Shown in pieces: positions 26,377 to 40,678 of a DNA stretch of 64,000 nt. The DNA comes from Acidobacteriota bacterium (GTDB lineage Bacteria > Acidobacteriota > Holophagae > Holophagales > Holophagaceae). Under the pieces are notes generated by a model that made no database searches, had not been told where the DNA came from, and worked only from the letters and a program-made list of their open reading frames with translations. Each line of letters begins with the position of its first letter. The first letter of the stretch is position 1. The stretch lies in contig JACPYP010000028.1 of NCBI GenBank assembly GCA_016195985.1, positions 1 to 64,000 on the forward strand, written 5' to 3'. Position numbers and translations under genes: made by a program.

Positions 26377-26380
26377 TCCA

Positions 26381-26452
26381 GCCCCATCCCAGGGAGGGCC
26401 AGGGTCTTCTAAACCCGAACGGCAGGTTCGACTCCTGCACGAACTGCGCAAG
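26381..26452 (+). pseudogene. Partial tRNA-Arg(TCT)
   Basis: An anticodon arm GGGT/ACCC around CTTCTAA (TCT) and a good T-arm GCAGG/CCTGC with TTCGACT are present. The 5' acceptor strand does not pair with the 3' side and no CCA is encoded. It is probably a damaged tRNA at the end of the first run. Confidence 0.6.
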
Positions 26453-26728: not shown

Positions 26729-27664
26729 ATGGACATTCAGGCCTATGGATTTTCTTACACGCCACCTGCGTTCATTTCAGTTCAAGAATTATTTGCTGAA
26801 ATGCAGTCTCTTCATAAAGCGAAGAAGAAGTGGCGAGGTCAATTTAGGCTGCTTTCATTCCACAACCAAGTAGACAGGAACAGTCTAATTCGAGGTGGCA
26901 TCTTAAGCGTGAGAGATGAGAAGGTCGCATTGCGGTTGCTAGAAATTGGCGGGGAAATGAGGGTTGTCCCTACGGAACAGGATGAAGAACACATCGACTT
27001 CAACTGTTTCCTCTTCAAATTGGACCGAACTAGGCCGAGCAGGGTCGTGCGAGGGCTATTCACCACATACTTCGGGAGTCTTTCTATCAGGGGTTGGGGT
27101 CAGTATTTGGATCGCCTCTCAGCCCAAGTAGTACGAAACAAGGTTGAAAATCTTCTAGAAGAGGCAGGAGAGTCGGCAAGTTTGCGCGCCGTTAGCAAGT
27201 ACATAGATGAACGCAACATCAGCACAACTGGCGTCTTTGCCCAAATTGTTGTGAGCGGAAATTTTAAACAATTAGTTAGTGATTTAAGAGAAATTAAAAG
27301 GCTACAAATGCATTACGAAGTTGTCGATGAAGACATAAACCCAGACACCCCACTTCCACAGCATTCAGAGCACGTGAGAGACACGAGGGTGATTACCTTT
27401 GAAGCAGGACTACGAGGAAGAAGTGCTGCGCGGCAAATATACGATTATATCCATGCCATGGGGGCATCGAGCGCAAAGGTGATTGGAATTACAGAGGAAA
27501 ATGAAGACACTGATGTAGATTTAAATATGAATCCAGAACGATTCTGGAATAAAGATTTAGATGAAATTAAAAGAACGATGCGGATATCTGTTGAAGATTT
27601 CTCGGATAGTCCTATATTTGAACTATTGAGCGGGCGATTCCATGCAGATCCAAGACTATCATAA
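26729..27664 (+). CDS. Unknown soluble protein of an AT-rich two-gene cassette
   Basis: A 311-residue soluble protein starting MDIQAYGFSYTPPAF; an upstream in-frame Met (26702) is possible. I do not recognise the family. There is no membrane segment; it is rich in charged residues, with an acidic C-terminal third (TEENEDTDVDLNMNPERFW). Codon use and GC content differ sharply from the flanking DNA, so it was probably acquired. Its 3' end overlaps the next gene by 23 bp, which suggests coupled translation of a soluble plus membrane pair. Such architecture is common in abortive-infection modules (for example RexAB of lambda), but this is an analogy, not homology. Confidence 0.75.
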   Translation: MDIQAYGFSYTPPAFISVQELFAEMQSLHKAKKKWRGQFRLLSFHNQVDRNSLIRGGILSVRDEKVALRLLEIGGEMRVVPTEQDEEHIDFNCFLFKLDRTRPSRVVRGLFTTYFGSLSIRGWGQYLDRLSAQVVRNKVENLLEEAGESASLRAVSKYIDERNISTTGVFAQIVVSGNFKQLVSDLREIKRLQMHYEVVDEDINPDTPLPQHSEHVRDTRVITFEAGLRGRSAARQIYDYIHAMGASSAKVIGITEENEDTDVDLNMNPERFWNKDLDEIKRTMRISVEDFSDSPIFELLSGRFHADPRLS

Positions 27665-28283
27665 TTCAATTTTCAAAAAATTTAAGAACCTCCTTAGACA
27701 GTCTATATATCCATTTATTGGTTCTATCCTAATTTTAGTAATTATTCTTTGGTGGAAGTACTTTTTAAATTTACAAAATGATTATTTTATTTATCAATAT
27801 AAAGCGATTTTCAGAATTCCTTTATTTTCTGGTTTCCTTACGATTGGCAGTTTTATGCTTTCATTTAAAGCATTTACGGTATTGCGACTACATGAAGATG
27901 TTTATAAGTCCCCAGAATACCAAGAGCGCTGGGTTAAACGTGCGATGGATTTTAGTTTAAAACCAATCACATATCTTGATCCACTGGCTCGCCTGACTGA
28001 CACATTTTTCTTGGCTATTTTCTTTTCACTGATGGCTGCATTTTTACAGGTCACACTAGGACTCATTCCGAAATTATGGTTGGTCTGCTTCTGTGTCTGG
28101 GCGGCTCTTTTTTCGGGATGTTTGGTTCTTCGATCTTTGTATGTGTTGCGTCAAAATCTAGTCGAATGGCAGAAATTACTGTCGAAGAAATACGCGGATG
28201 AATTGGAAGCGAAGATCTCGCAATTAAAGGAAGAGATCGCGAAAAAAGAATCGGAATGCCTAAAAGCTGCGAATCGAGATTAG
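27642..28283 (+). CDS. Four-helix membrane protein with C-terminal coiled coil
   Basis: A 213-residue membrane protein. Helices lie at about residues 22-42 (FIGSILILVIILWWKYFL), 56-80, 115-138 and 143-166. A charged C-terminal coiled coil follows (LSKKYADELEAKISQLKEEI). It is coupled to the preceding gene by overlap and shares its AT-rich composition. The family is not recognised. It could be the effector of a membrane-acting defence pair; that is inference from architecture. Confidence 0.75.
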   Translation: MQIQDYHNSIFKKFKNLLRQSIYPFIGSILILVIILWWKYFLNLQNDYFIYQYKAIFRIPLFSGFLTIGSFMLSFKAFTVLRLHEDVYKSPEYQERWVKRAMDFSLKPITYLDPLARLTDTFFLAIFFSLMAAFLQVTLGLIPKLWLVCFCVWAALFSGCLVLRSLYVLRQNLVEWQKLLSKKYADELEAKISQLKEEIAKKESECLKAANRD

Positions 28284-28936
28284 TCACAGCGCTGGCAGCG
28301 ATTCGTGGTGTAACTGATTCCTTGACGAATCGAGGCTGCAATCACCCCAACACCAGTGGGAAGAGCCTGTGAGAACGGGCTAGCTAGTGCACCTCGCCTG
28401 GAATAACGGGACTGGTCGCCAATGCGGCGAGGTGCACTTCCATAAGGGTGTGGCCCCTCTGGCGCATGAACACGCCCACGCTGTCACCCCTCTGGGGGGC
28501 GTGGCAGCGCCCCCAGACCCTCGCCATAAAGTGCCCCCATGCTTCTCGAATGCACCCGGTATTTCGAGCGGGCACTACTAGCTGCCCTACCGGAGGACCA
28601 TCGTACCGAGGACGCCGTGCGGATAAAGCTGGGGAGCTAGGCCACGGCTGAACCGGTCGAAGGATCGACCCTTCCAAGGCGACTCCAGAAAATCGGCTAG
28701 CGGATCTGTGAGGCCAAGCTCTCTAGGAGTGAAGAGCATAGGTTGAACCGGGGTTCCACAAGCTGAATATGCTTGGACCTCCGGCCGTGTGGCTCGGTCG
28801 TTCATAGCTTGCTCCGGGGCCGGGATAACCGGCAAACGGTGGTTGATCGAGGTGACAATCACCTTGATTGAATTGAGGAAACTACCCTCACGTTGCCATG
28901 TCAAGCCACACAGTGGTGGAAACCATCCACATTCAC
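28284..28936 (+). other. 653-bp non-coding, structured region
   Basis: No convincing ORF or tRNA. Several inverted repeats are present: GATTCG/CGAATC (28300-28341), a perfect 13-bp dyad at 28386-28438, a CGCTG/CAGCG stem near 28480-28510, GGTCGA/TCGACC near 28657-28672, and ATCGAGGTGA/TCACCTTGAT (28846-28868). The density of stems suggests a structured RNA or an eroded tRNA stretch. It is not tmRNA or RNase P by their core motifs. Confidence 0.5.
28386..28438. repeat. Perfect 13-bp inverted repeat
   Basis: AGTGCACCTCGCC at 28386-28398 and GGCGAGGTGCACT at 28426-28438, separated by 27 nt. Confidence 0.85.
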
Positions 28937-29012
28937 GCGCCCGTAGCTGAACGGGATTAGCACCAGTTTACGAAGCTGGTTCATGGGGGTTCGAGTCCCT
29001 CCGGGCGCACCA
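28937..29012 (+). tRNA. tRNA-Arg(ACG)
   Basis: Acceptor GCGCCCG/CGGGCGC, anticodon stem CCAGT/GCTGG around TTACGAA, T-loop TTCGAGT, A73, CCA encoded. ACG would need deamination to ICG to read CGN broadly. Confidence 0.93.
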
Positions 29013-29025
29013 ATCACGAACGCAC

Positions 29026-29100
29026 GGACTGGAAGCTCAACGGCCGAGCAGCGCCCTGTTAAGGCGCACGATGCGGGTTCGAATCCCGCCCAGTTCGCCA
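29026..29100 (+). tRNA. tRNA-Asn(GTT)
   Basis: Acceptor GGACTGG/CCAGTTC, anticodon stem GCGCC/GGCGC around CTGTTAA, T-arm GCGGG/CCCGC with TTCGAAT, G73 typical of Asn, CCA encoded. Confidence 0.93.
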
Positions 29101-29126
29101 ATCGGGCCCAGTGCGGGCCCCAGAAG

Positions 29127-29200
29127 GTGACGTTAGCTCAGTGGCAGAGCACCGCGCTGTGAACGCGGATGCATCGGTTCGATTCCGTTACGTCACACCA
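29127..29200 (+). tRNA. tRNA-His(GTG), lacks C73
   Basis: Acceptor GTGACGT/ACGTCAC, anticodon stem CCGCG/CGCGG around CTGTGAA, T-loop TTCGATT, CCA encoded. The discriminator is A, not the C73 that pairs with G-1 in bacterial His tRNAs; a G does precede position 1. Confidence 0.9.
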
Positions 29201-29204
29201 CCAC

Positions 29205-29283
29205 GGGCTGGAAGCTGAAACGCGGATGCAGCGCCGGACTGAAAATCCGGAGGATGTCAGTTCGACTCTGACCCAGCCCACCA
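29205..29283 (+). tRNA. tRNA-Phe(GAA)
   Basis: Acceptor GGGCTGG/CCAGCCC, anticodon stem CCGGA/TCCGG around CTGAAAA, T-arm GTCAG/CTGAC with TTCGACT, A73, CCA encoded. Confidence 0.93.
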
Positions 29284-29284
29284 C

Positions 29285-29357
29285 ACCCCATCGTTCAGGT
29301 GAAGAACGCGGCTCTCCGAAGGCCGAGGTCCCGGTGTCGAACCCGGTGGGGGTAACA
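29285..29357 (+). tRNA. tRNA-Arg(CCG), 3' end ACA
   Basis: Anticodon stem CGGCT/GGCCG around CTCCGAA. Acceptor ACCCCAT/TGGGGGT pairs over 5 bp, with mismatches at the inner end. The T-loop has an extra base (TGTCGAAC between CCGG and CCGG). The 3' end reads ACA instead of CCA. Weakened but recognisable. Confidence 0.75.
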
Positions 29358-29358
29358 G

Positions 29359-29435
29359 GTCCTCGAAGCCGAATCGCATGAGGCAGCCCCCTCCTAAGGG
29401 GCAGGTTGGCGGCTGGAATCCGCCCGAGGACACCA
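29359..29435 (+). tRNA. tRNA-Arg(CCT)
   Basis: Acceptor GTCCTCG/CGAGGAC, anticodon stem GCCCC/GGGGC around CTCCTAA, T-stem GGCGG/CCGCC with a non-standard loop CTGGAAT (T54 and C56 lost), A73, CCA encoded. Confidence 0.88.
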
Positions 29436-29437
29436 TT

Positions 29438-29513
29438 GCCGCCTTAGCTCATCTGGCAGAGCGCCCGCCTTGTAAGCGGGGGGCACCCGGATCATGACCG
29501 GGAGGCGGCTCCA
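29438..29513 (+). tRNA. tRNA-Thr(TGT)
   Basis: Acceptor GCCGCCT/AGGCGGC, D-arm GCTC/GAGC, anticodon stem CCCGC/GCGGG around CTTGTAA, T-stem CCCGG/CCGGG with a non-standard loop ATCATGA, T73, CCA encoded. Confidence 0.88.
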
Positions 29514-29516
29514 CCT

Positions 29517-29594
29517 CAGCCTGTAGCTTAGTCTGGCGAAAGCGCCGGTCTGGGGGACCGGAGACCGCCCGTTCAAATCGGGCCAGGCTGACCA
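29517..29594 (+). tRNA. tRNA-Pro(GGG)
   Basis: Acceptor CAGCCTG/CAGGCTG with C1-G72, anticodon stem CCGGT/ACCGG around CTGGGGG, T-arm GCCCG/CGGGC with TTCAAAT, A73, CCA encoded. Confidence 0.92.
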
Positions 29595-29595
29595 C

Positions 29596-29670
29596 ACTCC
29601 TGTAGCTCAGAGGCAGAGCGCCTGGCCCACACCCAGGAGGTTGGGGTTTCGAGATCCCCCGGGAGTACCA
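29596..29670 (+). tRNA. tRNA-Val(CAC), C33 variant
   Basis: Acceptor ACTCCTG/CGGGAGT, D-arm GCTC/GAGC, anticodon stem CCTGG/CCAGG around CCCACAC (C33). The T-loop region GGGGTTTCGAGATCCCC has altered loop length. A73, CCA encoded. Confidence 0.88.
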
Positions 29671-29674
29671 CTTC

Positions 29675-29749
29675 GCCCTCGTAGCTCATGGGCAGAGCGC
29701 CCGCCCGACACGCGGGAGGCGATTGGTTCGACACCAGCCGGGGGCACCA
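29675..29749 (+). tRNA. tRNA-Val(GAC), C33 variant
   Basis: Acceptor GCCCTCG/CGGGGGC, D-arm GCTC/GAGC, anticodon stem CCCGC/GCGGG around CCGACAC (C33), T-loop TTCGACA, A73, CCA encoded. Confidence 0.9.
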
Positions 29750-29750
29750 C

Positions 29751-29826
29751 GGACCGTGACGCATCGGAGTAAGCGGCCAGCCCTTCAAGCTGGTGGAAGA
29801 GGGTGCAAGTCCCTCACGGTTCGCCA
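29751..29826 (+). tRNA. tRNA-Glu(TTC), C33 variant
   Basis: Acceptor GGACCGT/ACGGTTC, anticodon stem CCAGC/GCTGG around CCTTCAA (C33), T-stem GAGGG/CCCTC with loop TGCAAGT (T55 changed to G), G73 typical of Glu, CCA encoded. Confidence 0.9.
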
Positions 29827-29832
29827 TTCCAC

Positions 29833-29908
29833 ACCGCAGTAGCTCAGGTGGAAGAGCACCCGGTTCTTACCCAGGAGGGCGCCGTTTCGACTACGGCCTG
29901 CGGTACCA
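29833..29908 (+). tRNA. tRNA-Lys(CTT)
   Basis: Acceptor ACCGCAG/CTGCGGT, anticodon stem CCCGG/CCAGG (one mismatch) around TTCTTAC, T-arm GCCGT/ACGGC with TTCGACT, A73, CCA encoded. Confidence 0.9.
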
Positions 29909-29911
29909 ATC

Positions 29912-30039
29912 CGGCGTGTAGCGCAGCCTGGGAGCGCGCCTGCTTCGGGAGCAGGAGGTCCGGCCTCTGTGCGAAAGCACAGGAGCGCGCACGGCGCGCG
30001 ATAGGCCGGAATTCTGTTCAATCCTGGCCACGCCGACCA
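29912..30039 (+). tRNA. tRNA-Pro(CGG) with three-way-junction insert
   Basis: Acceptor CGGCGTG/CACGCCG with C1-G72, D-arm typical of Pro, anticodon stem CCTGC/GCAGG around TTCGGGA, A73, CCA encoded. At the variable loop/T-arm boundary there is an insert of about 55 nt: outer stem TCCGGCCT/AGGCCGGA enclosing CTGTGC-GAAA-GCACAG and GCGCGC-ACG-GCGCGC. The T-stem itself is weak around TTCAATC. Total 128 nt against the usual 77. Confidence 0.88.
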
Positions 30040-30127
30040 AATCTCATCCGGGATCTCCCCGTGTGAGCCCACCCGACCCACCATGTGTGGGCTTCAACCC
30101 AAAACCCTGTTACGAAAGGAGGCGACC

Positions 30128-31294
30128 ATGTCCCTCGCAACCCTCCAAGGGGCTGTCGCCCCCATCAAGATGTGGACCCCCGTCCACGACGTCGAATCCC
30201 AGGCCCTCACCCAGCTCAAGAATATCGCGGCCCTGCCATGGGTGTTCAAGCATGTGGCCGTTATGCCCGACGTCCATTTCGGGAAGGGCGCCACGGTGGG
30301 ATCCGTCATCGCCATGAAAGACGCCATCGCGCCTGCCGCAGTAGGCGTGGACATCGGTTGTGGCATGGCTGCCGTGAAGACCAACCTTACAGCCTCGGAT
30401 CTTCCCGAAAGCCTCAAGGCCCTGCGGCTCAGCATTGAACAGGCCATCCCCGTGGGGTTCAACCAGTACCGGGACCCCCTGGATGCCATCGAACGGCACG
30501 CCCTCTGGGATGAATTCGAGGATCTCGATGCACGGGTGCAGAACCTCTTCGGAAAGGCCCGCCGTCAGGCGGGAACCCTGGGAGGTGGCAACCACTTCAT
30601 CGAGGTCTGCCTGGACCAAGACCAGGTCGTGTGGATCATGCTCCACTCGGGCAGCCGGAACATCGGCAATGAGTTGGCCAAGATCCACATCGAGGTCGCT
30701 CAAAAACTGGCCCACAACCAGGGTCTGCCTGACCGTGATCTGGCCGTGTTCCTCAAGGGCACCAAGGAGATGGCGGCCTACCGTCGGGACCTCTTCTGGG
30801 CCCAGCAGTACGCCTTCCTCAACCGCGAAGCGATGCTGGATCAGGTGAAGGATGTCGTGAAGGCCCACTTCCCCGAAGTGGCTTTCGAGTCCCCCATCCT
30901 CTGCCATCACAACTACGTGTCGGAAGAAGTCCACTTCGGCGAGGAGGTCCTGGTGACCCGCAAGGGGGCTATCCGGGCCGGACGCGGCGAATGGGGCATC
31001 ATTCCTGGTTCCATGGGCGCCCGCAGCTTCATCGTCCAGGGCAAGGGGAACCCCGAGTCCTTCGAATCGGCGTCCCATGGCGCCGGGCGGAAGATGAGCC
31101 GGAATGCCGCCAAGAAGCACTTCAGCGTGCAGGACCTCGCCCGTCAGACCGAAGGCGTCGAGTGCCGGAAGGATGCGGGTGTCCTGGATGAAATTCCAGG
31201 CTGCTACAAGGACATTGATGAGGTCATGCGCAACCAGGCGGATCTCGTCGAAATCCGGTTTGAACTGAAGCAGGTGCTCTGCGTGAAGGGGTAG
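30128..31294 (+). CDS. rtcB: RNA-splicing ligase RtcB
   Basis: A 388-residue GTP-dependent RNA ligase that joins 3'-phosphate or 2',3'-cyclic phosphate ends to 5'-OH ends, as in tRNA splicing and repair of nuclease-cleaved RNA. Metal-site and catalytic motifs are present: GVDIGCGMAAV (Asp and Cys ligands), GGGNHFIEV, LHSGSRNIGN, HHNYVSEE, and the guanylylated-His motif ASHGAGRKMSR near residue 330. The length is slightly below E. coli RtcB (408). The start at 30128 has a near-perfect AAAGGAGG; a longer in-frame start at 30083 lacks one. It lies between two tRNA runs, with slipin downstream and no RtcA or RtcR nearby. The context points to tRNA processing or repair. Confidence 0.96.
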   Translation: MSLATLQGAVAPIKMWTPVHDVESQALTQLKNIAALPWVFKHVAVMPDVHFGKGATVGSVIAMKDAIAPAAVGVDIGCGMAAVKTNLTASDLPESLKALRLSIEQAIPVGFNQYRDPLDAIERHALWDEFEDLDARVQNLFGKARRQAGTLGGGNHFIEVCLDQDQVVWIMLHSGSRNIGNELAKIHIEVAQKLAHNQGLPDRDLAVFLKGTKEMAAYRRDLFWAQQYAFLNREAMLDQVKDVVKAHFPEVAFESPILCHHNYVSEEVHFGEEVLVTRKGAIRAGRGEWGIIPGSMGARSFIVQGKGNPESFESASHGAGRKMSRNAAKKHFSVQDLARQTEGVECRKDAGVLDEIPGCYKDIDEVMRNQADLVEIRFELKQVLCVKG

Positions 31295-31770
31295 TCCCTT
31301 CCTGGAGCCAGAAGACCACCCACGCCCGGGCTTCCAACCCGGGCGCGGGTCAGGAGGGGGGCCTGGCCAGTGCGGCGTCCCCGGCCCACGGAGCCTCATG
31401 GGTTCCCGGTCGGCCGGAGATGTCCCGCGATTCGACCCAGGAGGAGCCCTCCCGTATGGGGACGACGCACTGTCCCACGATCAAGGGGTTCGACTCCCCA
31501 ACGACCTACGCAGTCGTGCACTGGTTGCAACGCGCCTTGTAAGCGCTCGGAACCACCCACCACTTCCGCCCAGGCCCCTGCCCGAGGGATTCGTCTCAAG
31601 GGCAGGGGGCATCCCGGCCAGTGGTCTCCACCTGTCGCATCTGCGGCAGGGGCCGGACTCGGACCCTCCAGGCGCACGCCATATCGCGCCCAGGTCCGGG
31701 TCCCGCCGGAGACCCCGCCGGTAAGCCCCCGGGGCCTCGGCTGAAGTCTTACCAAGAAAGGAATTCAACG
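31295..31770 (+). other. 476-bp rtcB-slipin spacer with tRNA-like remnants
   Basis: No complete tRNA could be folded. Visible fragments: a hairpin CGCCCGGG/CCCGGGCG around CTTCCAA, which looks like a Gly(TCC) anticodon arm (31331-31353); a T-arm AGGGG/CCCCA around TTCGACT (31482-31500); and a Thr(TGT)-like arm with loop CTTGTAA near 31533. A CCCCTGCCC/GGGCAGGGG stem sits at 31575-31608. These look like decayed or rearranged tRNAs, or tRNAs too unusual for me to recognise. Confidence 0.55.
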
Positions 31771-32862
31771 ATGTATCAGCGTTATGTCATCTCCGACCAG
31801 GAGCGTGGTCTCCTGGTCCGCAACGGTCAGCTCACCCGCTGGCTGGAACCCGGCCGTCACCGGGTATTCCGGGGCCTGTCCCGCCTGGAACTGCGCCTCT
31901 TTAACCGCGACACCCTCATGACCCCGTTCACTCCGGAGCTGATGGCAGTGGCCCCTTCTGGCGCCGCCGTAGAAGCCTTCGTGCCCGAGACCCACCTGGG
32001 TCTCCTGCGGGCGGACGGTGTGCCCAAGGCCGTGCTCCAGCCTGGCCGCTACCTGCTCTGGCAGCTCGCGGCCAAGGTGACCCTGGATGTGGTGAGCCTC
32101 GAGCCGCTGCGGCCTGCAATCCCGGAAGGTTTCTGGGCCCTGGTGCCCGCCGCCCAGGCTCAGACCGTTCTGGTTCTGCCCTTCGAGCGCGCCCTCGTCC
32201 ACGTCGACGGTGTGCTGCGCGAGGTCCTCTCCGAGGGCCGCGCGCTCTACAGCACCCTCAACCGCAAGCTTGAAGTGATGCGGGTGGACCTGCGCGAGCA
32301 GGAAATGCAGATCCTCGGCCAGGAGCTGATGACCCGTGACAAGGTCACCCTCCGACTGAACCTGGTCGTGAAGTACCGCGTCGTCGACCCCGTGAAGGCG
32401 GTGCAGTCCGTGGCCTCCCTGCGGGATGCGCTCTACAGCGAAGCCCAGATGTCGGCCCGGCACTTCGTGGCCGAGCTGAACCTGGACCAGCTCCTGGAGC
32501 GTCGCTCCGAGGCCGTGGCCCCCATGGCGGAAGCCCTGCGGGAACGCGCCGCATCCTGGGGTGCGGAGGTGCTGAAGCTCGACGTGAAGGACCTGGTCCT
32601 TCCCGGTGAGATGAAGCAGCTCCTCAACCAGGTCATCGAGGCCGAGAAGAAGGCCGCGGCCCAGGTCATTCTGCGCCGTGAGGAAGTTGCCTCGACCCGT
32701 TCCATGGCGAACACCGCCCAGATGCTCGAGCGCAACCCCGCACTCCTGCGCCTGAAGGAACTGGAAGCCTTCAAGGAGATCGCATCCGCGATCCCCAACC
32801 TCACCCTCGTCATGGGTCAACCCGAACTGCTTCGCAGCCTGAGTGGCCTGAACAAGGACTGA
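31771..32862 (+). CDS. Slipin / SPFH (Band 7) family protein
   Basis: A 363-residue SPFH-domain protein. The N-terminal segment is YVISDQERGLLVRNGQLTRWLEPGRH, followed by the band-7 core with REQEMQILGQELMTRDKVTLRLNLVVKYRVVDP. An Ala/Glu-rich helical region (VIEAEKKAAAQVILRREEVASTRSMANTA) and a conserved end (LRLKELEAFKEIA) fit slipins. Unlike most stomatins it has no N-terminal membrane hairpin. The start at 31771 has AAAGGA. Slipin genes occur beside rtcB in other bacterial RNA-repair loci, to my recollection; its mechanistic role there is unknown. Confidence 0.9.
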   Translation: MYQRYVISDQERGLLVRNGQLTRWLEPGRHRVFRGLSRLELRLFNRDTLMTPFTPELMAVAPSGAAVEAFVPETHLGLLRADGVPKAVLQPGRYLLWQLAAKVTLDVVSLEPLRPAIPEGFWALVPAAQAQTVLVLPFERALVHVDGVLREVLSEGRALYSTLNRKLEVMRVDLREQEMQILGQELMTRDKVTLRLNLVVKYRVVDPVKAVQSVASLRDALYSEAQMSARHFVAELNLDQLLERRSEAVAPMAEALRERAASWGAEVLKLDVKDLVLPGEMKQLLNQVIEAEKKAAAQVILRREEVASTRSMANTAQMLERNPALLRLKELEAFKEIASAIPNLTLVMGQPELLRSLSGLNKD

Positions 32863-32872
32863 GGCAACAGTC

Positions 32873-32903
32873 AGGGGGTGTGAGTGTGCCATTCACACCC
32901 CCT
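32873..32903 (+). terminator. Hairpin after slipin
   Basis: AGGGGGTGTGA and TCACACCCCCT form a perfect 11-bp stem with a 9-nt loop, 10 nt after the slipin stop and 7 nt before tRNA-Gly. There is no U-tract, so it may be a processing or stability stem rather than a terminator. Confidence 0.55.
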
Positions 32904-32910
32904 ACTTCGT

Positions 32911-32984
32911 GCGGGTCTGGTCCAGCGGCCGGGCCTCGGCCTTCCAAGCCGATGAGAGGGGTTCGACTCCCCTGACCCGCTCCA
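32911..32984 (+). tRNA. tRNA-Gly(TCC)
   Basis: Acceptor GCGGGTC/GACCCGC, anticodon stem TCGGC/GCCGA around CTTCCAA, T-loop TTCGACT, U73 typical of Gly, CCA encoded. Confidence 0.93.
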
Positions 32985-32987
32985 TTT

Positions 32988-33064
32988 GCACCAGAAGCCG
33001 AAGCGGACGAAGCGCGGAACTGCAAATTCCGTCATAGGGGGTTCGAGTCCCTCCTGGTGCTCCA
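32988..33064 (+). tRNA. tRNA-Cys(GCA)
   Basis: Acceptor GCACCAG/CTGGTGC, anticodon stem CGGAA/TTCCG around CTGCAAA, T-loop TTCGAGT, U73 (Cys identity), CCA encoded. Confidence 0.93.
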
Positions 33065-33067
33065 CTG

Positions 33068-33143
33068 GCCCGAGGAGCTTGGTCGGTTAAGCCCCCGCTC
33101 GGTAGGCGGGAGAACACCGGTTCGATCCCGGTCTCGGGCTCCA
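33068..33143 (+). tRNA. tRNA-Thr(GGT), C33 variant
   Basis: Acceptor GCCCGAG/CTCGGGC, anticodon stem CCCGC/GCGGG around TCGGTAG (C33), T-arm ACCGG/CCGGT with TTCGATC, T73, CCA encoded. Confidence 0.92.
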
Positions 33144-33178
33144 CTCATCCACCTGCAGTTATCCCGATGTGAAGTTTG

Positions 33179-33251
33179 GCTTCTTGGTCATGTGCTGTGA
33201 CACCGCTCTCGTAATGCGGAAGGCCGGGTTGGATTCCCGGAGAAGGCTCCA
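33179..33251 (+). tRNA. tRNA-Thr(CGT)
   Basis: Acceptor GCTTCTT/AGAAGGC (two G-U pairs and one mismatch), anticodon loop CTCGTAA in stem CCGCT/TGCGG, T-stem CCGGG/CCCGG with loop TTGGATT (C56 lost), T73, CCA encoded. Confidence 0.78.
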
Positions 33252-33253
33252 CC

Positions 33254-33331
33254 GCGCGCGTGGCGGAACTGGCATACGCATCCAGCTCAAACCTGGAGTT
33301 TCTGTGGGTTCGACCCCCACCGCCCGCACCA
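33254..33331 (+). tRNA. tRNA-Leu(CAA) with short variable loop
   Basis: Acceptor GCGCGCG/CGCCCGC (one mismatch), a Leu-type D-arm (TGGCGGAACTGGCATACGCA), anticodon stem TCCAG/CTGGA around CTCAAAC, T-arm GTGGG/CCCAC with TTCGACC, A73, CCA encoded. The variable loop is 6 nt (GTTTCT) instead of a long arm. Confidence 0.88.
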
Positions 33332-33343
33332 CCCGAGGTTCCC

Positions 33344-33847
33344 ATGTCCAGACACACCAAAAAGCACTGCGCACAGATCGTCCTCGCCCTGGACTGCCAC
33401 TACATGCCCATGGTTGAGATCTCCCGCCGGAAGGCTCTGAAGGCCATGGCCACGGGTCGAGCCCATGCGCTGGACCTGAAGACCTGGTCGAAGCTCGGCC
33501 TGCAGGACGTGGCCTCGCAGCCCTTCCACGCCGTAGTCTTCTCGAAGGCCAGGGCGGTGGCTGAATCGAAACTCGGGTTCGGGCGCGGCAATGCCAGCAT
33601 CCTCCGGCGTGACGAACATCGTTGCCAGTACGTGGGGTGCATGCGCCGCGCAACCACGGTGGACCATGTCATCCCCCGGTGCCAGGGCGGGCCGAGCACC
33701 TGGGCGAACCTGGTCGCGTGCTGCCGGGAGTGCAACGCAAGGAAGGGCGGAAGAACGCCCGAGCAGGCTGGCATGCAACTAAGGTCGGCTGTACGTAGTC
33801 AGCGGGCTCTCCTGTTGGAGCGGTTCCATGTCTTGGCGGGAGTTTGA
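33344..33847 (+). CDS. HNH endonuclease family protein
   Basis: A 167-residue stand-alone HNH protein. The N-terminal half follows the common pattern LDCHYMPMVEISRRKALKAMATGRA. The nuclease core has CQYVGC, TTVDHVIPRCQGG (the His and Asp of the beta-beta-alpha metal fold), WANLVACCRECN and RKGGRTPEQAGM; CxxxxC plus CxxC suggests a structural zinc. The start at 33344 lies 12 nt after tRNA-Leu; a longer open frame would overlap that tRNA. It ends the co-directional tRNA block. A degenerate copy of its C-terminal half lies at 37.3-37.55 kb. Confidence 0.9.
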   Translation: MSRHTKKHCAQIVLALDCHYMPMVEISRRKALKAMATGRAHALDLKTWSKLGLQDVASQPFHAVVFSKARAVAESKLGFGRGNASILRRDEHRCQYVGCMRRATTVDHVIPRCQGGPSTWANLVACCRECNARKGGRTPEQAGMQLRSAVRSQRALLLERFHVLAGV

Positions 33848-33904: not shown

Positions 33905-35275
33905 TTACGAAACCAGAAATGGGCGAAGGCCTTGAATCGAGGACTGGCTGGGTCCATTCGAGCCGAGGAAAACATGGCACTTCGTAGTGTTCTCCACCCT
34001 CTCTATCAGCTCGGTGGCAGACCCCACGGGCCCTTCGAACATGGGTTTCACTGTGTTGATGAAGCCCGTGAGTTTGGCCTGATGTGTGAGGTCATGGGTG
34101 GCATTCCATTTAAGATCGGCGATGATCTCATGATTCCCAGATGAGCGGATACAGAGCGTCTCATCCCCTGGCTGTAGGGGGGCGCGATAACCCTCGCACC
34201 AGTTCAAGGCTCTATCCTTGTCGAAGACATCCAGGTGAGTCACTAGAAGCCCATCCAGGGGGCCGGCCACAGCCATTGCATACCGAAGAAGGACTGCATC
34301 GGGATGGCCTCTCCGGAACTGGCCTTGCCAGCCATTGTTGCTGTTGTGTGGCTCGCCGAGGTAATCCAAGGCAGGGTCCTCGGTGGGGAGGGGGCCTCGA
34401 CCGTGACGGGTGAGGTAGGAGCGGAGAACTCCGAAGTGATGCACCTTCGTTTGGAGGCCGGCCTCCTGGACCAGGGCGTCCACCGAGGCAGGTCGGGGGC
34501 TGCTCCACGTTGTGTGGGGATGGAATCCATGCCACTCGTCCAACAAGAATCCCTGGGCGCCCTCGAAGATTACGGTCCCTGGGTCGTGGAGTCGCTCCGA
34601 GAGGGCATTCTCGGAGACTTCTGGCACCTGGCTTAGGAGCGCGCAGGCTTGTTCCAGCCAAATTTCATTGATGGAAGGGTCCCGGAGGATGAGTCGTTCG
34701 GTCTCAAGACCGGGTGGACCAGGATCCCCATCCAACTCCGCGAGCAACCGCCTCCTGAGGGCCTCGAGCTTCTCCTTCGCCAGGGTTGGGTGGTTTAGAT
34801 CCTGGAGGTGCATCGTGTCTTCAGGGCTGAGGATGGATTGATGCACTGTTTCCCCGATGCCAACACCGCAGGTGCCATGGGAATTCTGGCCCCGCAACAG
34901 TTCGCGCACCTTTCCGGCGGCTTGGTGAAGGGGGGTCGTGAGACGACAGCGGGGATCGATGCTCAGGCGGGCGAGGGCATCCGGTACTCCGGAGCGCCGG
35001 AGGTATTCGGCCTCAACCAGGAGGGCTGTGGGATGGACGATGACCGGGTGGGCGAGAAAGGTCCTCGCACCAGGCTGGAATGTTCCGGATCCGAATTGGG
35101 AAAAGGTGTGGTGGCGGCCATCAGGCAGGACCACGTTGTGACCGGCCTGCGCGCCACCATTGAATCGCACGATGGTGTGGGCGTTCCACACACGGCAGAG
35201 GTGGTCAGTGTAGAGACCCTTCCCGCAGTCCCCGAAGGCTAGCCCGAGGATCGAGACAAGCCTGTCCGCGGCCAA
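33905..35275 (-). CDS. Divergent adenylosuccinate synthetase (PurA) paralogue
   Basis: A 456-residue PurA-fold protein. The P-loop reads LAFGDCGKGLYTD where canonical PurA has GDEGKGK: the catalytic Asp is kept and the next Glu is Cys. VRFNGGAQAGHNVV retains the catalytic His. NSHGTCGVGIGE, VIFEGAQGFLLDEWHG, LRSYLTRHGRGPLPTE and VTHLDVFDK align with GTTGRGIG, EGAQG, TRVGAGPFPTE and TKLDVLD of PurA. PurA ligates IMP to Asp using GTP. Because the sequence diverges and sits in an accessory cluster, it may act on another substrate, as the phage PurZ paralogue does on dGMP. It is last in the kinase-VWA-PurA operon (12 bp gap). Confidence 0.85.
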   Translation of the reverse strand: MAADRLVSILGLAFGDCGKGLYTDHLCRVWNAHTIVRFNGGAQAGHNVVLPDGRHHTFSQFGSGTFQPGARTFLAHPVIVHPTALLVEAEYLRRSGVPDALARLSIDPRCRLTTPLHQAAGKVRELLRGQNSHGTCGVGIGETVHQSILSPEDTMHLQDLNHPTLAKEKLEALRRRLLAELDGDPGPPGLETERLILRDPSINEIWLEQACALLSQVPEVSENALSERLHDPGTVIFEGAQGFLLDEWHGFHPHTTWSSPRPASVDALVQEAGLQTKVHHFGVLRSYLTRHGRGPLPTEDPALDYLGEPHNSNNGWQGQFRRGHPDAVLLRYAMAVAGPLDGLLVTHLDVFDKDRALNWCEGYRAPLQPGDETLCIRSSGNHEIIADLKWNATHDLTHQAKLTGFINTVKPMFEGPVGSATELIERVENTTKCHVFLGSNGPSQSSIQGLRPFLVS

Positions 35276-35287
35276 GTGCGACCTCTG

Positions 35288-36262
35288 TCAACTGAAGAGT
35301 TGCTTCCACCAACTCGTGCGGGAGGCTCCGGTGGTGGATTGCATGTGGGGCTGATTGAGCGAAGCCACGCCGAGGAGATCCGCATAGGGCCGAAGGGCTC
35401 GGATGACCGCCGCGATTCGATCGCGGTGCCACCCCTGTCCATGGAGCGCCTTGGCAAGAGCATCCAAGTCGGGTAATCGCTTCTCCGTGAGACCTACAAT
35501 TGCAGCCGCGACTGCACAGGTATCCTCGTAGGATTCCATGCAGATGACGTGGTCCCCGAGTACTTCACGCCATCGGGGCTCACAGCTTTTGCCACGCCGG
35601 AGGTCGGGGATGAGGAAGAAGAGATTGTAGGTCTCGGCCGCCGCGGCGACGACCTCCTCCAGGGGTAGATCCTCGTCGAGTTTCTCTCCGAAGATGCCCT
35701 CGATCTGGTGTCTAGAGATGGCCGGGTAGGGTAGTTCGTCGCCAGTCATGAAGAGGTAGCCACGCTTCCTGCGCTTGGCCCAGCAGTCCAGGTCCGTGTG
35801 CTGGGCAAGGGTGTAGAAGGCTAGGTCATAGCTCTCGTGGTGGTTGCCGCCGCCACCGCCTTCCAGGAAACACCAGGTGAGCCATTGGTCCATGAGTTCT
35901 GCGGTGGTCTCGAACTGTCCGACCTGCAGGGAAGCGCGGTCCGACATGGCGTCGCCAACCGCCATGAAGAGCACCTGCGGATCGGGAACGGCGCATTCCT
36001 CCAGGAGTTTCATGAAGGTGGGGAGTTCTTTCTTCGCCAACAGCTTGGGGATGTCCCCCATCGAGCCTGTGACGTCCAGCGCGAAGACAATGCCGAGTGA
36101 ATCAGGATGCTCTGCGCTGTCCCTGGATTCACGGACCTTCAGGCCCTTGGGATCCATGAGGGCATGGCAGGAGGACTGCCTGAACACTTCGGTATGGGGC
36201 CGATTGGCGCGGGAGGCGATGAGGGCCTGGTGGGCTTCCTGCGAATAATTTCCATATCCCAT
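35288..36262 (-). CDS. VWA-domain protein
   Basis: A 324-residue von Willebrand A-domain protein. The MIDAS motif is LDVTGSMGD (DxSxS variant DVTGS), with the third-position Thr and Asp probably in MTGDEL. The sequence EGGGGGNHHESYDLAFY precedes it. It has no signal peptide, so it is probably cytoplasmic. It lies between a kinase-like and a PurA-like gene with short gaps (29 and 12 bp). VWA-kinase pairs occur in TerY-type triads, where the third member is a PP2C phosphatase; here that position is held by a PurA paralogue. Confidence 0.85.
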   Translation of the reverse strand: MGYGNYSQEAHQALIASRANRPHTEVFRQSSCHALMDPKGLKVRESRDSAEHPDSLGIVFALDVTGSMGDIPKLLAKKELPTFMKLLEECAVPDPQVLFMAVGDAMSDRASLQVGQFETTAELMDQWLTWCFLEGGGGGNHHESYDLAFYTLAQHTDLDCWAKRRKRGYLFMTGDELPYPAISRHQIEGIFGEKLDEDLPLEEVVAAAAETYNLFFLIPDLRRGKSCEPRWREVLGDHVICMESYEDTCAVAAAIVGLTEKRLPDLDALAKALHGQGWHRDRIAAVIRALRPYADLLGVASLNQPHMQSTTGASRTSWWKQLFS

Positions 36263-36291
36263 GGTGTGTCCTATCGATGGAGGCCGGGTGT

Positions 36292-37263
36292 TTAGGCTTC
36301 AGGGATGAAGGGAATGAAGGTGGGTGGTCCGTAGGCTTGCCGTGATGCTTCCTTGAGCAGGTGGTCGAGGCTTTGAGCCGTCTGAGTGGCGCACCAGGCC
36401 AGATCCTCGCAGCAACGATGGAGGAGGTCTGCGAGCGGGTCGGGAACGCGGCTGGGAATGGAAGATGCATCGGCCATTCCGGATAGAACGGCCCGGGTGG
36501 ACCAGGCGGATTGGGCCAGGTCACGGGTCACGGTTGGCTGGGACAGGAGGTCCTTAGGAGCCTCAACTCTCACTTGTGCGTGTCCCCACCCGATGATTCG
36601 AATGCCGTGGTCCTGGGGGTGGACAAGCAGGTGCTCGGGAGCCAAGTCCGTGTGCACCCAGTTCCGGTCGTGGACAAAGCCCAGAGCGCCAAGCATGCGC
36701 CGCCACATCCAGATGGCATGCTTGGGGTCGATGCCCCGTGGATTTAGGTGGAGCACATCGGAGAGGGTTCCCCAAAAACCTGTGGGGTGTCTGAGGAGCA
36801 ACAGTTCTTGTCCGAGGCCAAAGGGCCCTTCCGAGGATCCAACTCCTTCGACCTGGGGGAGGTGCTGTGATGCCAGGACTCCGCCGGTGGGATCGGCTTC
36901 CATCAATGATCGAAGCACCGACGCCTCTTGAGCCAGCCGGCCAGACTCATGGCCTGGTCTTGCGAGCTTAACAGTCACACGTTCACCGCCTGGTCCCAGG
37001 CGCTGCCCGAGGTACACATCGCTGTGAGCTCCACGCCCGAGGGAACCGAGAATTTGATACCGGTGGCTCTGGTAGCGTACTGCCAGACCCGAAGCAGGGG
37101 TGGCCTGAGACCTTGCGTAGGCTTCCTTGAACCTCGCGGCCTGAACGACTTCTTCTGCTCGCGAGACCATCGAGCCACAGTTGGGACAAGTCACCATCCG
37201 CCACCGGGCTTGCCTAGGCAGAGGTGCCCCACACTGAGGGCATGCCAATACGTTAAAAAGCAT
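36292..37263 (-). CDS. Zinc-ribbon protein kinase-like protein
   Basis: A 323-residue protein. The N-terminus starts MLFNVLACPQCGAPL and continues to TCPNCGS, giving a CxxC-CxxC zinc ribbon (residues 8-32). A kinase-like domain follows: glycine loop LGRGAHSDVYLG, lysine in VTVKLAR, and catalytic loop VHTDLAPEHLL (HRD becomes HTD, Asp kept). The DFG position reads IIGWG, so the Mg-binding Asp is missing and the protein may be a pseudokinase or atypical. I prefer the start at 37263; the longer open frame runs across the degenerate HNH copy and has no related sequence. First gene of the minus-strand trio. Confidence 0.82.
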   Translation of the reverse strand: MLFNVLACPQCGAPLPRQARWRMVTCPNCGSMVSRAEEVVQAARFKEAYARSQATPASGLAVRYQSHRYQILGSLGRGAHSDVYLGQRLGPGGERVTVKLARPGHESGRLAQEASVLRSLMEADPTGGVLASQHLPQVEGVGSSEGPFGLGQELLLLRHPTGFWGTLSDVLHLNPRGIDPKHAIWMWRRMLGALGFVHDRNWVHTDLAPEHLLVHPQDHGIRIIGWGHAQVRVEAPKDLLSQPTVTRDLAQSAWSTRAVLSGMADASSIPSRVPDPLADLLHRCCEDLAWCATQTAQSLDHLLKEASRQAYGPPTFIPFIPEA

Positions 37264-37329: not shown

Positions 37330-37551
37330 CTGCGTATGTGGGGGTTGGAGCAAGGGCGATTGGTGGACCCCATCATCCCCCGGAGTGAGGGCGGGCCGAG
37401 CGCCTGGGCGAACCTGGTCGCATGCTGCCGGGAGTGCAATGCACGGAAGAGCGGAAGAACCCCAGAGCAGGCTGGCATGCAACTCCGATCCTCGGTCAGG
37501 TCCCAGCGGGCCCTGCTGATGGATCGGCTGAACACACTGGCACAAGCTTAG
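37330..37551 (+). pseudogene. Truncated HNH nuclease copy
   Basis: The C-terminal half of an HNH protein closely related to the intact gene at 33344, including PIIPRSEGGPSAWANLVACC and RTPEQAGMQLRS. The DNA also matches closely over about 190 bp. The N-terminal half is absent and the His of VDHVIP has become Pro (VDPIIP), so it cannot be active. It marks the far side of the kinase-VWA-PurA segment. Confidence 0.8.
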
Positions 37552-37669: not shown

Positions 37670-40600
37670 ATGCTGCGTCGCCTTGTCATTGCACTACTGG
37701 CTCTTATCCCGGTCTATGCCCAGGTCCCTCTGGCAATGCCGGTCATCCAGGTCACCCAGGAGGACCGGACGCAGGCCGCCAAACTCCATGACCTCCACAT
37801 CAGCGTGAAGGTCGTGGGTCATGTGGCGACGACGACCTGGGACATGACGGTTTTCAATCCTCAGGATCGAGTCCTCGAAGGTGAACTCGTCTTCCCACTG
37901 GGAGAGGGCCAGACGATCTCCCGCTTCGCCATGGACGTGAATGGCCGACTCCGGGAAGGGGTGGTGGTGGAGAAGGTCAAAGGTCGGAAGGCCTTCGAGG
38001 AGATCGTCCGCCGAGGTGTGGACCCTGGCCTGCTTGAGAGGACCGCCGGCAACAGCTTCATGGCGCGGGTCTATCCGATTCCGGCCAAGGGCTACAAGCG
38101 CGTGGTCCTGGCGTATGAGCAGGAACTTGCCGATGCGGGCCCAAAAAATCTGCTCTACCGGCTGCCCCTGGCCTTTACCGAGAAGGTCGCCATCTTCGGC
38201 TTGCGTGTCGAAGTCCTGGATCAGCCAGAGGCACCGCAGGCCACCTCCAGCCCGCTGGCCAACTTCACCTTCAAGTCCATTCGCCGCGGCTTCCTGGCCG
38301 AGGAAACCCGGACGGATTTTGCGCCGGACAGCCCCTTGGCGGTGGTCATCCCCAGGGGCGAGGGCAGCAGCCAGGTGTTCGTGGAGCAACGGGACGGCAC
38401 ATCCTACTTCTTCGTGATGGTCCATCCCCGTCTTCCCCGGGAAACGAAGGCCATGCCCCGACACCTCCTAGTGGTCTGGGATGCCTCGGCCAGCGCCAGG
38501 AACCGGAACCTGAAGCGGGAACTCGACCTGTTGGAGGCCTATCTCCGGCGTCTGGGATCCTGCCGCGTGAGTCTCAGCGTGTTCCGCAATGTGGCGGAAC
38601 CTCTTCGGACCTTCCGTATCCTGGATGGCGATACCCAGGACTTGCGGAAGCATCTCCAGGCCCTCCCCCTGGACGGCGCCACCCACCTCGGAGCTTTGGA
38701 TCTCAAGTCGGTCCAGGCGGACGAAACCCTGATGTTCTCCGATGGAATGAACACCTTCGGCCCTGGTGGGCCCCAGTTCCCCGACGCGCCGCTCCTGGCG
38801 ATCAATAGCGCCTTGGTCGCCGAACATGGGCTCCTCCGGGCCATCAGCGAAGCGCGGGGCGGCGAATATCTCAACCTCCAAGCCCTGAGCAATGACGAAG
38901 CCCTTCTGGCCCTCAAAACCCGACCCTTGGCCTTCCTTCGGGCCACCTGCGGTGCCGGTGACGTCGAAAGCGTTTATCCCGGCGCAGGGCGGGTGATCCG
39001 CGGGCCTTTCGGTTTGGCGGGCATCCTGAAGACGGCCCGGGCCAAGGTGACGCTCCACTTCGGCTTCGGCACCAGCGTCCGTTTCTCCAAGACCTTCGAC
39101 ATCGACGCCAGCCTGGCCGCCGTGGATGCCCCCGTGGCACGCCTCTGGGCCCAGCGCAAGCTTGCCGACCTGGAGCTGGACAAGGTCCGAAACGCCAAGG
39201 CGATCACTTCGCTGGGCCAGGCCCACAGCCTCGTTACGGAAGGCACAAGCCTCATCGTGCTCGATGATGTGGCCGACTATGTCCGATACCGGATTGTGCC
39301 TCCAGAAGGCCTTCGTGCCGAATACGATCGCCGCGTATCCATGGAGCTCGACCAATCGAAACAGCGGGACAAGGATCACCTTGAGTCCTTGGTGCAGCAG
39401 TTCGAGGAGCGGAAAACCTGGTGGAAGACCGTCTTCAAGGTGCCCCAGAAGCCGAAGGAAAAAGAGCTTGAGGACGTGGGCGTTCCTGGGGGTATCCCTG
39501 GTGGCGTGATTGGGGGAGTTGTCGGTGGGGTGGTCGGAGGTGTGGTTGGTGGCACCGCAAGAACAACGATTCCACCTCCTCCCCCTCCGCCGCCACCAGC
39601 TGCCAATACTCCGGGTGTGCAAAGACACCATAGGCAGTCCGAGGCAGTCGTGGAGGTCGTCGCCCGGGCCGCATCGGTCGATCAGACAACGGTGACAAGC
39701 GCGGTGAATTTATCGGCAGATGGGCTCGCGAGTGTTCCTGGTCTTCGTGCGGAGGAGGAAGCTTCTGCATCCATCCGTTTGAAGGCATGGTCGCCAGACA
39801 CGCCCTATCTAAGGGAGTTGAAAGGCGTTCCGAAGCCTGAACGATACGCCCTCTATCTCCGTCAGCGGGAAATCCATGGAAAGACACCCGGGTTCTTCCT
39901 TGACGCCTCCGATTTCTTCCGGGATCAAGGCGAGAAGGATTTAGCCCTTCGCATCCTCTCCAACCTCGCCGAGCTCAAGCTGGAGGATGCCCCGCTCCTG
40001 AGGGTCCTGGGCTACCGTCTTCGTCAGTTGGGGCTTCCCGGCATGGCCGTGTGGACTTTTGAGGAAGCCTTGCGAATGCGCGAAGAGGAGCCCCAGAGCC
40101 GCCGGGACCTTGCCCTCGCTTTGACAGAGGCCGGTCAACCGCAGAAGGCCCTCGACCTGTTTTGGGAACTGGTGAAAACTCCGTGGGACGGGCGGTTCCA
40201 GGATGTGAACATCATCGGGGTGGGCGAGTTGAACGCCCTCCTGGCCATGTCGAAGGCCAAGCTCGATGCGTCAGCAATCGACCCGCGGCTTCTGACGAAT
40301 CTGCCCGTGGATGTGCGCGTGGTCCTGAACTGGGATACGGATAACAGCGACATGGACCTTCACGTGGTGGACCCAAGGGGCGAGGAGTGCTTCTACAGCC
40401 ACAACAAGACCGCCATCGGTGGGCGAATTAGCCGGGATGTGACGGACGGATATGGCCCCGAGGAGTTCCTCCTCCATCGGGCCCTTCCCGGCGTCTATAA
40501 GGTGAAAGCCAATTTCTTCGGCACCAGGCAACAAACGGCCGTCGGGGCCACCACCGTCGCGCTGGAGCTCTATTTGCGATACGGAACCGGCCGCGTGGAG

Positions 40601-40678
40601 AACCGCTCAATGACCCTCCGCCTGGATGGCAAAGGCCGGATGGTCGATATCGGGGAGTTCCGCTTCGACCAGAAGTAG
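37670..40678 (+). CDS. Secreted VIT-VWA-DUF2135 protein
   Basis: A 1002-residue protein with a signal peptide (MLRRLVIALLALIPVYA). A VIT domain lies at about 25-150 (ARVYPIPAKGYKRVVLAYEQEL) and a VWA domain at about 265-430 with a variant MIDAS (VVWDASASARN). A glycine-rich hinge (GVIGGVVGGVVGGVVGG) and a run of eight Pro follow at about 620-660. Helical TPR-like repeats come next, then a C-terminal DUF2135 domain (WDTDNSDMDLHVVDPRGEE). Domain order matches bacterial inter-alpha-trypsin-inhibitor-like proteins of the cell envelope. The start at 37670 was chosen for the signal peptide. It is probably outside the tRNA module functionally, though adjacent to it. Confidence 0.88.
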   Translation: MLRRLVIALLALIPVYAQVPLAMPVIQVTQEDRTQAAKLHDLHISVKVVGHVATTTWDMTVFNPQDRVLEGELVFPLGEGQTISRFAMDVNGRLREGVVVEKVKGRKAFEEIVRRGVDPGLLERTAGNSFMARVYPIPAKGYKRVVLAYEQELADAGPKNLLYRLPLAFTEKVAIFGLRVEVLDQPEAPQATSSPLANFTFKSIRRGFLAEETRTDFAPDSPLAVVIPRGEGSSQVFVEQRDGTSYFFVMVHPRLPRETKAMPRHLLVVWDASASARNRNLKRELDLLEAYLRRLGSCRVSLSVFRNVAEPLRTFRILDGDTQDLRKHLQALPLDGATHLGALDLKSVQADETLMFSDGMNTFGPGGPQFPDAPLLAINSALVAEHGLLRAISEARGGEYLNLQALSNDEALLALKTRPLAFLRATCGAGDVESVYPGAGRVIRGPFGLAGILKTARAKVTLHFGFGTSVRFSKTFDIDASLAAVDAPVARLWAQRKLADLELDKVRNAKAITSLGQAHSLVTEGTSLIVLDDVADYVRYRIVPPEGLRAEYDRRVSMELDQSKQRDKDHLESLVQQFEERKTWWKTVFKVPQKPKEKELEDVGVPGGIPGGVIGGVVGGVVGGVVGGTARTTIPPPPPPPPPAANTPGVQRHHRQSEAVVEVVARAASVDQTTVTSAVNLSADGLASVPGLRAEEEASASIRLKAWSPDTPYLRELKGVPKPERYALYLRQREIHGKTPGFFLDASDFFRDQGEKDLALRILSNLAELKLEDAPLLRVLGYRLRQLGLPGMAVWTFEEALRMREEEPQSRRDLALALTEAGQPQKALDLFWELVKTPWDGRFQDVNIIGVGELNALLAMSKAKLDASAIDPRLLTNLPVDVRVVLNWDTDNSDMDLHVVDPRGEECFYSHNKTAIGGRISRDVTDGYGPEEFLLHRALPGVYKVKANFFGTRQQTAVGATTVALELYLRYGTGRVENRSMTLRLDGKGRMVDIGEFRFDQK

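Follow-up and report, generated by a model that had tools for sequence, protein, structure and literature searches.

Introduction

The described systems that come closest to the one presented here are the adenylosuccinate synthetase PurA, its phage relative PurZ and the TerY-P triad, each of which resembles one part of a three-gene operon encoding a kinase-like protein, a VWA protein and a PurA-like protein. We examined this operon in a 64,000-nucleotide (nt) stretch of Acidobacteriota DNA (positions 1 to 64,000 of contig JACPYP010000028.1, assembly GCA_016195985.1), hereafter the window. Asp13 of PurA is termed essential (PMC12884076). In the Escherichia coli enzyme, Arg303 makes contact both with IMP, at O2', and with aspartate, the latter being touched by a flexible loop as well (PMC8342488). 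A survey of 481 phage PurA homologues distinguishes a PurZ group of 151 sequences, four of them archaeal, with the other PurA homologues as the root, and reports serine at position 13 in 100% of 147 phage PurZ sequences (PMC12884076). Asn, Thr, Gln and Val residues help to form the base-binding pocket of S-2L PurZ (PMC8342488). TerY-P is described as a VWA protein, a PP2C and a kinase-zinc ribbon protein (PMC11090510).

Compared with these systems, the PurA-like protein shares with PurA its fold and residues Asp13, Lys16, His41, Gln224 and Asp333, but belongs to a separate clade with a fixed VWA neighbour, in which N38, T129, R131, V273, T301 and K331 are replaced and R143 and R303 are not conserved. 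Both it and PurZ are repurposed PurA homologues found in phages; however, phiVC8 PurZ has Ser13 where the present family has Asp13, and keeps N38, T129 and V273 where the present family is changed. With TerY-P the operon has in common a VWA protein and a zinc-ribbon kinase among three genes, but the third gene in the window is PurA-like rather than PP2C (no PP2C profile was run over other loci), the zinc ribbon is N-terminal or exchanged for a J-domain-like region instead of C-terminal, the kinase is degenerate, and the window VWA protein has no family match, its VWA fold being recognised in a structural model. In PHROGs, the three proteins of the mycobacteriophage Sebata trio, which the window's three proteins also match, are catalogued separately as 1211, 2971 and 3043, with 2971 lacking a function and 1211 named '2-aminooxy adenylosuccinate synthetase', also the product name in the phiVC8 PurZ record.

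A description of the cassette was not found in the open PMC literature, most subscription journals and bioRxiv lying outside the scope of that search; in a study of Vi01-like phages, adenylosuccinate synthase and a VWA protein appear as separate, unlinked table rows (PMC10892097). The observation is real and wider than first supposed. Across distant bacteria and lytic phages, a PurA subfamily whose pocket has been systematically rebuilt accompanies a VWA protein. This points to a purine reaction that has gone unrecognised, hidden in public annotation under 'adenylosuccinate synthetase' or a PurZ-type name. Because the genes are present in tractable phages of Mycobacterium smegmatis, the question is directly testable.

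A PurA-VWA cassette is shared by bacteria, plasmids and phages

The operon consists of the following genes:

33905-35275, minus strand: PurA-like protein, third gene of the trio (TTG start, 456 amino acids (aa), intact open reading frame (ORF))
35288-36262, minus strand: VWA protein carrying a DxTGS motif and the invariant GDE (ATG start, 324 aa, intact ORF)
36292-37263, minus strand: kinase-like protein with an N-terminal zinc ribbon (ATG start, 323 aa, intact ORF)

The genes follow one another in the order kinase-like, VWA, PurA-like, with gaps of 29 and 12 nt, and are transcribed toward plus-strand tRNA, rtcB, slipin and HNH genes, in agreement with the initial annotation, which had described a tight operon facing the tRNA array. 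Two further details of that annotation were borne out: the PurA-like protein carries a GDCGKG P-loop, and the kinase-like protein has Gly in place of the DFG Asp, with the Asp of the HRD position kept. The same gene set recurs in so many bacterial genomes, plasmids and phages that the trio is far beyond chance.

The cassette is common to many soil bacteria and large phages. Within the order, 65 of 77 genomes match the PurA-like query, but matches outside the window reach at most 40% identity and 103 bits (vs 1066), so weak that only the window's own genome, G000, has the paralogue (1/77, several genomes being incomplete); in a draw from the phylum the VWA gene occurred in 4/396 genomes, the window's own included. 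The cassette is thus patchy and was probably acquired horizontally. Searches with tblastn located adjoining PurA-like and VWA genes on plasmids from five bacteria, namely Variovorax, Rhodococcus, Tsukamurella, Acetobacter and Agrobacterium vitis. The two genes also adjoin in Sebata and Tonenili, Bixzunavirus mycobacteriophages in which a polynucleotide kinase gene lies nearby. Confirmed VWA relatives amount to at least 503 genome-contig stretches, 243 viral-contig stretches and 207 named phage records, of which 188 belong to Mycobacterium phages, 10 to Rhizobium phages, 6 to Vibrio phages and 3 to others. For the PurA-like query, 227 phage records matched, with 189 from Mycobacterium phages, 10 from Rhizobium phages, 6 from Vibrio phages and 22 from other phages, certain of these 22 looking like ordinary bacterial PurA.

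For the analysis of gene order we retained the nearest 79 of the bacterial stretches, which weights the bacterial figures toward Burkholderiales, Verrucomicrobia, Myxococcota and Chloroflexi, together with 85 viral loci (80 from the VWA scan and five through the PurA query alone). Some of the 85 viral loci share a contig (L033/L125, L036/L155 and L037/L177). A PurA-like gene lies within 4 kilobases (kb) of the VWA gene in 75 of the 79 bacterial loci and a kinase gene in 77, with both present in 74 and the order kinase-VWA-PurA in 70; among viral loci the corresponding counts are 81/85 for PurA-like and 36/85 for the kinase. A PurA paralogue in third place, initially regarded as unusual, is instead the rule. 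Restricting the count to loci from the VWA scan gives a PurA-like gene beside the VWA gene in 151/159, with five of the eight misses lying at most 114 nt from a contig end; all seven named plasmid and phage loci have both the PurA-like and the kinase gene, but were chosen through PurA or VWA matches.

Within 7 kb of the VWA gene in 84 de-replicated loci, 21 of them from genomes, the small viral ORF recurs in 20, an antisense frame in 10 and a family read as Nudix in 6, no other additional family reaching six loci. NUDIX genes are annotated beside the trio in Rhodococcus, Tsukamurella and Agrobacterium. In Rhizobium phage RHph_TM40 (L205:1887-4223), genes for a HAD-type hydrolase, a phosphoribosyltransferase-like protein and an NMN adenylyltransferase/Nudix protein stand a few kb before the VWA-PurA pair.

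The PurA-like family is a separate clade with a rebuilt pocket

The window PurA-like protein matches Adenylsucc_synt (PF00709) at 206 bits against a Pfam cut-off of 27, but falls far under the cut-off of every NCBIfam adenylosuccinate synthase model that it matches, including the purA equivalogs (165 vs 402 and 141 vs 396 bits), and under that of PurZ (33.9 vs 300 bits). Its AlphaFold model (predicted local distance difference test, pLDDT, 92) has the PurA fold, with a best Foldseek E of 3.5e-30; the PurZ structure 7odx is more distant (E 1.6e-15). In a maximum-likelihood tree of 44 rows, 34 PurA-like sequences stand on one side of a branch with 100/99 support and nine PurA sequences are separate (97/92), while the window protein groups at 100/100 with proteins from Variovorax, Rhizobacter, Janthinobacterium, Rugamonas and a Verrucomicrobiaceae metagenome-assembled genome. 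PurZ is represented by a single, very long branch, which leaves its exact place in the tree unsure. These comparisons indicate that the family is a clade apart from both PurA and PurZ, and we infer that it must account for part of the non-PurZ remainder in the phage survey (PMC12884076). An ordinary purA, scoring 523 bits where the paralogue scores 206, is located on another contig of the same genome, so that the divergent paralogue first suggested from the window neither clusters within PurA nor is the only purA present.

Active-site residues were compared in E. coli numbering over 70 PurA-like rows, comprising 61 of 165 PurA-like frames (those on the plus strand with a resolvable start and a stop, and 330-520 aa long), eight named proteins and the window protein, a few proteins appearing twice and many being close relatives; 11 PurA sequences and phiVC8 PurZ served as yardsticks. 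Residues G12, D13, K16, G17, H41, Q224 and R272 are invariant in 70/70 rows, among them the phosphoryl-transfer residues D13, K16, H41 and Q224, and D333 is present in 69/70, while C14 of the window's GDCGKG motif is seen in 19/70. Around this conserved core the substrate side is systematically altered:

N38: Q in 69/70, N in 1/70
I126: H in 65/70
T129: C or V in 68/70, T in 2/70
R131: replaced in 70/70 (V in 53)
R143: retained in 4/70
V273: H in 70/70, a new fixed His273
T301: Q in 70/70, a new fixed Gln301
R303: retained in 11/70
K331: C or H in 69/70

All 11 PurA yardsticks retain N38, T129, R131, R143, T301 and R303, which belong to the IMP and aspartate pocket of that enzyme. The four residues noted above in the S-2L PurZ pocket presumably correspond to N38, T129, Q224 and V273, S-2L PurZ itself standing outside the alignment. 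Judged from sequence, this pattern suggests that the chemistry of purine phosphorylation is kept while the substrate or the nucleophile has changed.

A VWA-fold protein and an exchangeable first subunit

The window VWA protein has no Pfam or NCBIfam match at E<=0.1, and PF00092 matches weakly in 2 of 23 VWA members. Its AlphaFold model (pLDDT 91) retrieves mostly integrin beta-I domains in Foldseek, the 50 best matches also including the NorD VWA. In Mycobacterium phage Pinkcreek the VWA gene (L259:2785-4605) is interrupted by an intein of ~255 aa, four residues before the invariant GDE, which matches TIGR01445 at 30.8 against a cut-off of 24.5; inteins favour conserved functional sites. This intein-bearing gene is annotated as a hypothetical protein, and in other Mycobacterium phages VWA matches break off near the Pinkcreek intein site.

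The kinase-like protein of the window scores 32.0 against Pfam Pkinase, just over the cut-off of 31.7, with sub-threshold zinc-ribbon matches and a ribbon at residues ~8-40. Across 59 kinase rows (the window protein, 51 filtered frames, six named proteins and the Variovorax protein, some proteins appearing twice), the HRD Asp is kept in 14 and the DFG Asp in 7, and the family therefore appears mostly catalytically degenerate. Two types of N-terminal region were distinguished. A motif rule detects a zinc ribbon in 26 of the 30 kinase rows from bacterial genome loci; three more zinc-ribbon proteins, which have wrong starts and were filed as 'other', were recognised by reading, and the remaining row (L123_6277) probably represents a different kinase. 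A zinc ribbon is also found on the Variovorax plasmid kinase. In place of the ribbon, a J-domain-like HPD motif is present in most viral kinase rows and in the plasmid-encoded proteins of Rhodococcus, Tsukamurella, Acetobacter and Agrobacterium. This class is defined here by H-P/T-D within the first 110 residues, and its DnaJ Pfam matches are weak and under cut-off.

In 30 of the 85 viral loci a small ORF of roughly 120-140 aa is located directly upstream of the VWA gene (e.g. L140:9574-9990, whose product has no PHROG match). The kinase and the small ORF exclude one another, with 36 loci having the kinase alone, 30 the small ORF alone and 19 lacking the two, which never occur together (Fisher 2.5e-10, which is no true probability, the loci being related). 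The first subunit of the cassette is thus exchangeable. All three proteins are under purifying selection in the pairs compared, with ratios of nonsynonymous to synonymous substitution rates (dN/dS) of 0.05-0.57 in the 10 of 30 attempted comparisons that could be made: 0.16 in two close comparisons for the PurA-like protein, 0.05 and 0.57 in two for the VWA protein, and 0.12-0.57 in six for the kinase.

Proposed mechanism and alternative explanations

The interpretation that we favour, at somewhat less than even odds, is that the cassette encodes a mobile, VWA-controlled, PurA-derived enzyme that activates a purine and yields a non-canonical product. Under this proposal the VWA protein, together with a kinase-like sensor or chaperone-adaptor, would control the enzyme, which would use GTP to phosphorylate the purine 6-oxo position as PurA does, Asp333 being kept and Lys331 not. 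A different purine substrate, a nucleophile other than aspartate, or both, might then give a non-canonical purine product serving as a signal or antimetabolite; the nucleotide signal suggested initially is thus a possible function. A metal ion-dependent adhesion site (MIDAS)-type site of the VWA protein may hold the complex together or gate it, and the degenerate kinase may sense or deliver, its J-domain acting toward Hsp70 and its zinc ribbon toward nucleic acid or protein; where the pseudokinase is replaced, the small protein may direct the enzyme in its stead. That bacteria and lytic phages alike carry the cassette suggests that it serves in stress or in conflict, between phage and host or among phages, rather than in housekeeping. 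A broader version of this proposal, which we regard as possible but rather unlikely, is that the cassette represents a new class of purine chemistry, in which a VWA protein and an interchangeable J-domain or zinc-ribbon pseudokinase or small protein control a PurA-fold enzyme, making an undescribed purine nucleotide used as a signal or weapon on both sides of a conflict.

Several observations weigh against this proposal. The putative conflict role is read from the distribution of the trio. Kept catalytic residues are no proof of catalysis, and the pocket changes are read from a sequence alignment in which a one-residue gap in the aspartate loop may shift the R303-R305 equivalences by one. The kinase, undetected in 49/85 viral loci, is not essential to the unit. 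No partner enzyme, sensor or effector is widely recurrent near the VWA loci, purB itself not having been searched for. Finally, among the anti-phage defence models of PADLOC 2.0.0 there was no match for the VWA or PurA-like protein, and for the kinase only kinase-type matches and one weak Cas12f match.

Among the alternatives, the one that survives best, although we consider it improbable, is that the PurA-like protein is a non-catalytic GTP switch or scaffold, which binds nucleotide and informs the VWA-kinase pair of GTP or purine levels without forming any product. The altered substrate-side pockets would fit such a role, as would partners that look regulatory, a degenerate kinase and a VWA fold; however, a pure binding protein would have no need of Asp13, His41, Lys16 and Gln224, which are present in every row of the alignment.

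A somewhat lower probability attaches to a dedicated translation-stress module, in which the trio would act alongside RtcB, slipin and the tRNA array when, for instance, tRNAs are damaged. In Anabaena, TrcR represses a tRNA array, rtcB, slipin and HNH genes, the same kinds of genes as in the island to the left of the trio, but these are placed at several loci and do not include the trio (PMC10272220). A polynucleotide kinase gene lies close to the trio in the Bixzunaviruses Sebata, Tonenili and Pinkcreek, and Pinkcreek is reported to have 29 tRNAs and a transfer-messenger RNA (tmRNA) (PMC9476963). Viral loci include at least five tRNAs in 14/85 cases, as little as 0.5 kb from the VWA gene, and an RtcB match in 4/85, RtcB having been searched for by one blastp with the window protein. 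Against these stand the bacterial loci, 0/79 of which have at least five tRNAs or an RtcB match within at most 10 kb on each side, and control RecA-like loci, 2/26 of which have at least five tRNAs, too slight a contrast with the viral trio loci to be judged; tRNAs per 10 kb number ~0.6 in the controls and ~2.0 in the viral trio loci. At least 10 tRNAs occur on 21 of 43 large viral contigs, and in 8 of these 21 an array lies within 10 kb of the trio, against an expected 4.6-5.7 (P 0.06-0.18), in a test that combines per-contig Rfam counts with ARAGORN counts made close to the trio and includes several loci that stop at contig ends. A functional link between trio and tRNAs is at most a possibility. 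A genus relative, G049, keeps such an island without the trio, and on these data a conserved RNA-repair link was rejected; of the association initially proposed, the adjacency in the window stands and a shared neighbourhood among bacterial loci does not.

A PurZ-like role in phages, with a modified DNA base as the product, is very unlikely: phage carriage and the PHROG name would suit it, but the family is common in bacterial genomes and plasmids, and PurZ identity was rejected on Asp13 in place of Ser and the NCBIfam score of 33.9 vs 300 bits. The name is common to true PurZ and to the Asp13-bearing family (L044:7977-9302, L206:23081-24112), and phages with the latter may consequently be misread as Z-DNA phages. 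We give equally little credence to a TerY-P-like phospho-switch, in which the kinase would phosphorylate the VWA or PurA-like protein. The combination of VWA protein, kinase and zinc ribbon recalls TerY-P (PMC11090510), but the trio has no PP2C, the window VWA protein has no Pfam or NCBIfam VWA or TerY match, the kinase catalytic residues are mostly lost and many viral loci have no detectable kinase. Given also the N-terminal zinc ribbon, TerY-P membership was rejected, and the resemblance to TerY-type triads raised initially is an analogy only. An ordinary second PurA with relaxed sequence is the least credible explanation: despite the PurA fold and family match, a backup PurA was rejected on the separate clade, the systematic pocket changes, the constant VWA linkage and the canonical purA in the same genome.

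Genomic context and arrival of the trio

To return to the favoured purine-activating cassette, the trio in the window would have been acquired next to the tRNA-array/rtcB island. The surrounding features are as follows:

24076-33847, plus strand: island context with tRNA array, rtcB, slipin and HNH
30083-31294, plus strand: rtcB within the island
31768-32862, plus strand: slipin within the island
33344-33847, plus strand: HNH endonuclease gene, end of the tRNA island, outside the cassette
33658-33823, plus strand: left copy of a 166-nt direct repeat, within the HNH gene
37362-37527, plus strand: right-hand copy of this direct repeat (166 nt, 83%), consisting of an HNH remnant
37673-40678, plus strand: VIT-domain protein, right flank common to G021 (context)

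The HNH-derived direct repeats thus bracket the trio. The island of G049 (L225) aligns to window positions 24076-33830 with 89-98% identity, interrupted by 26442-28917 and by a few small gaps; it has 31 tRNA genes in the piece compared, and ends at the HNH gene without the trio. The right flank is common to G021, starting at 37266, three bases upstream of the start codon of the kinase gene, and running through the HNH remnant and the VIT gene. G021 has no trio in this region and no tRNA genes in the 19.5 kb examined; it is not a clean empty site, the alignment being limited to the right flank and the HNH repeat. With the G049 island and the G021 flank both lacking the trio, the trio looks like a separate arrival.

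The tRNA-array/rtcB/slipin/HNH island, common to one genus relative, is an island in its own right, and rtcB of the window type occurs in 3/47 genomes of the genus. GC content is 69.8% left of the tRNA island (1-24000), 59.3% in the island, 60.9% across the trio and 61.2% beyond position 41000. A permuted tmRNA called by ARAGORN at 29191-29622 overlaps the tRNA-Phe, -Thr and -Pro genes and is probably spurious.

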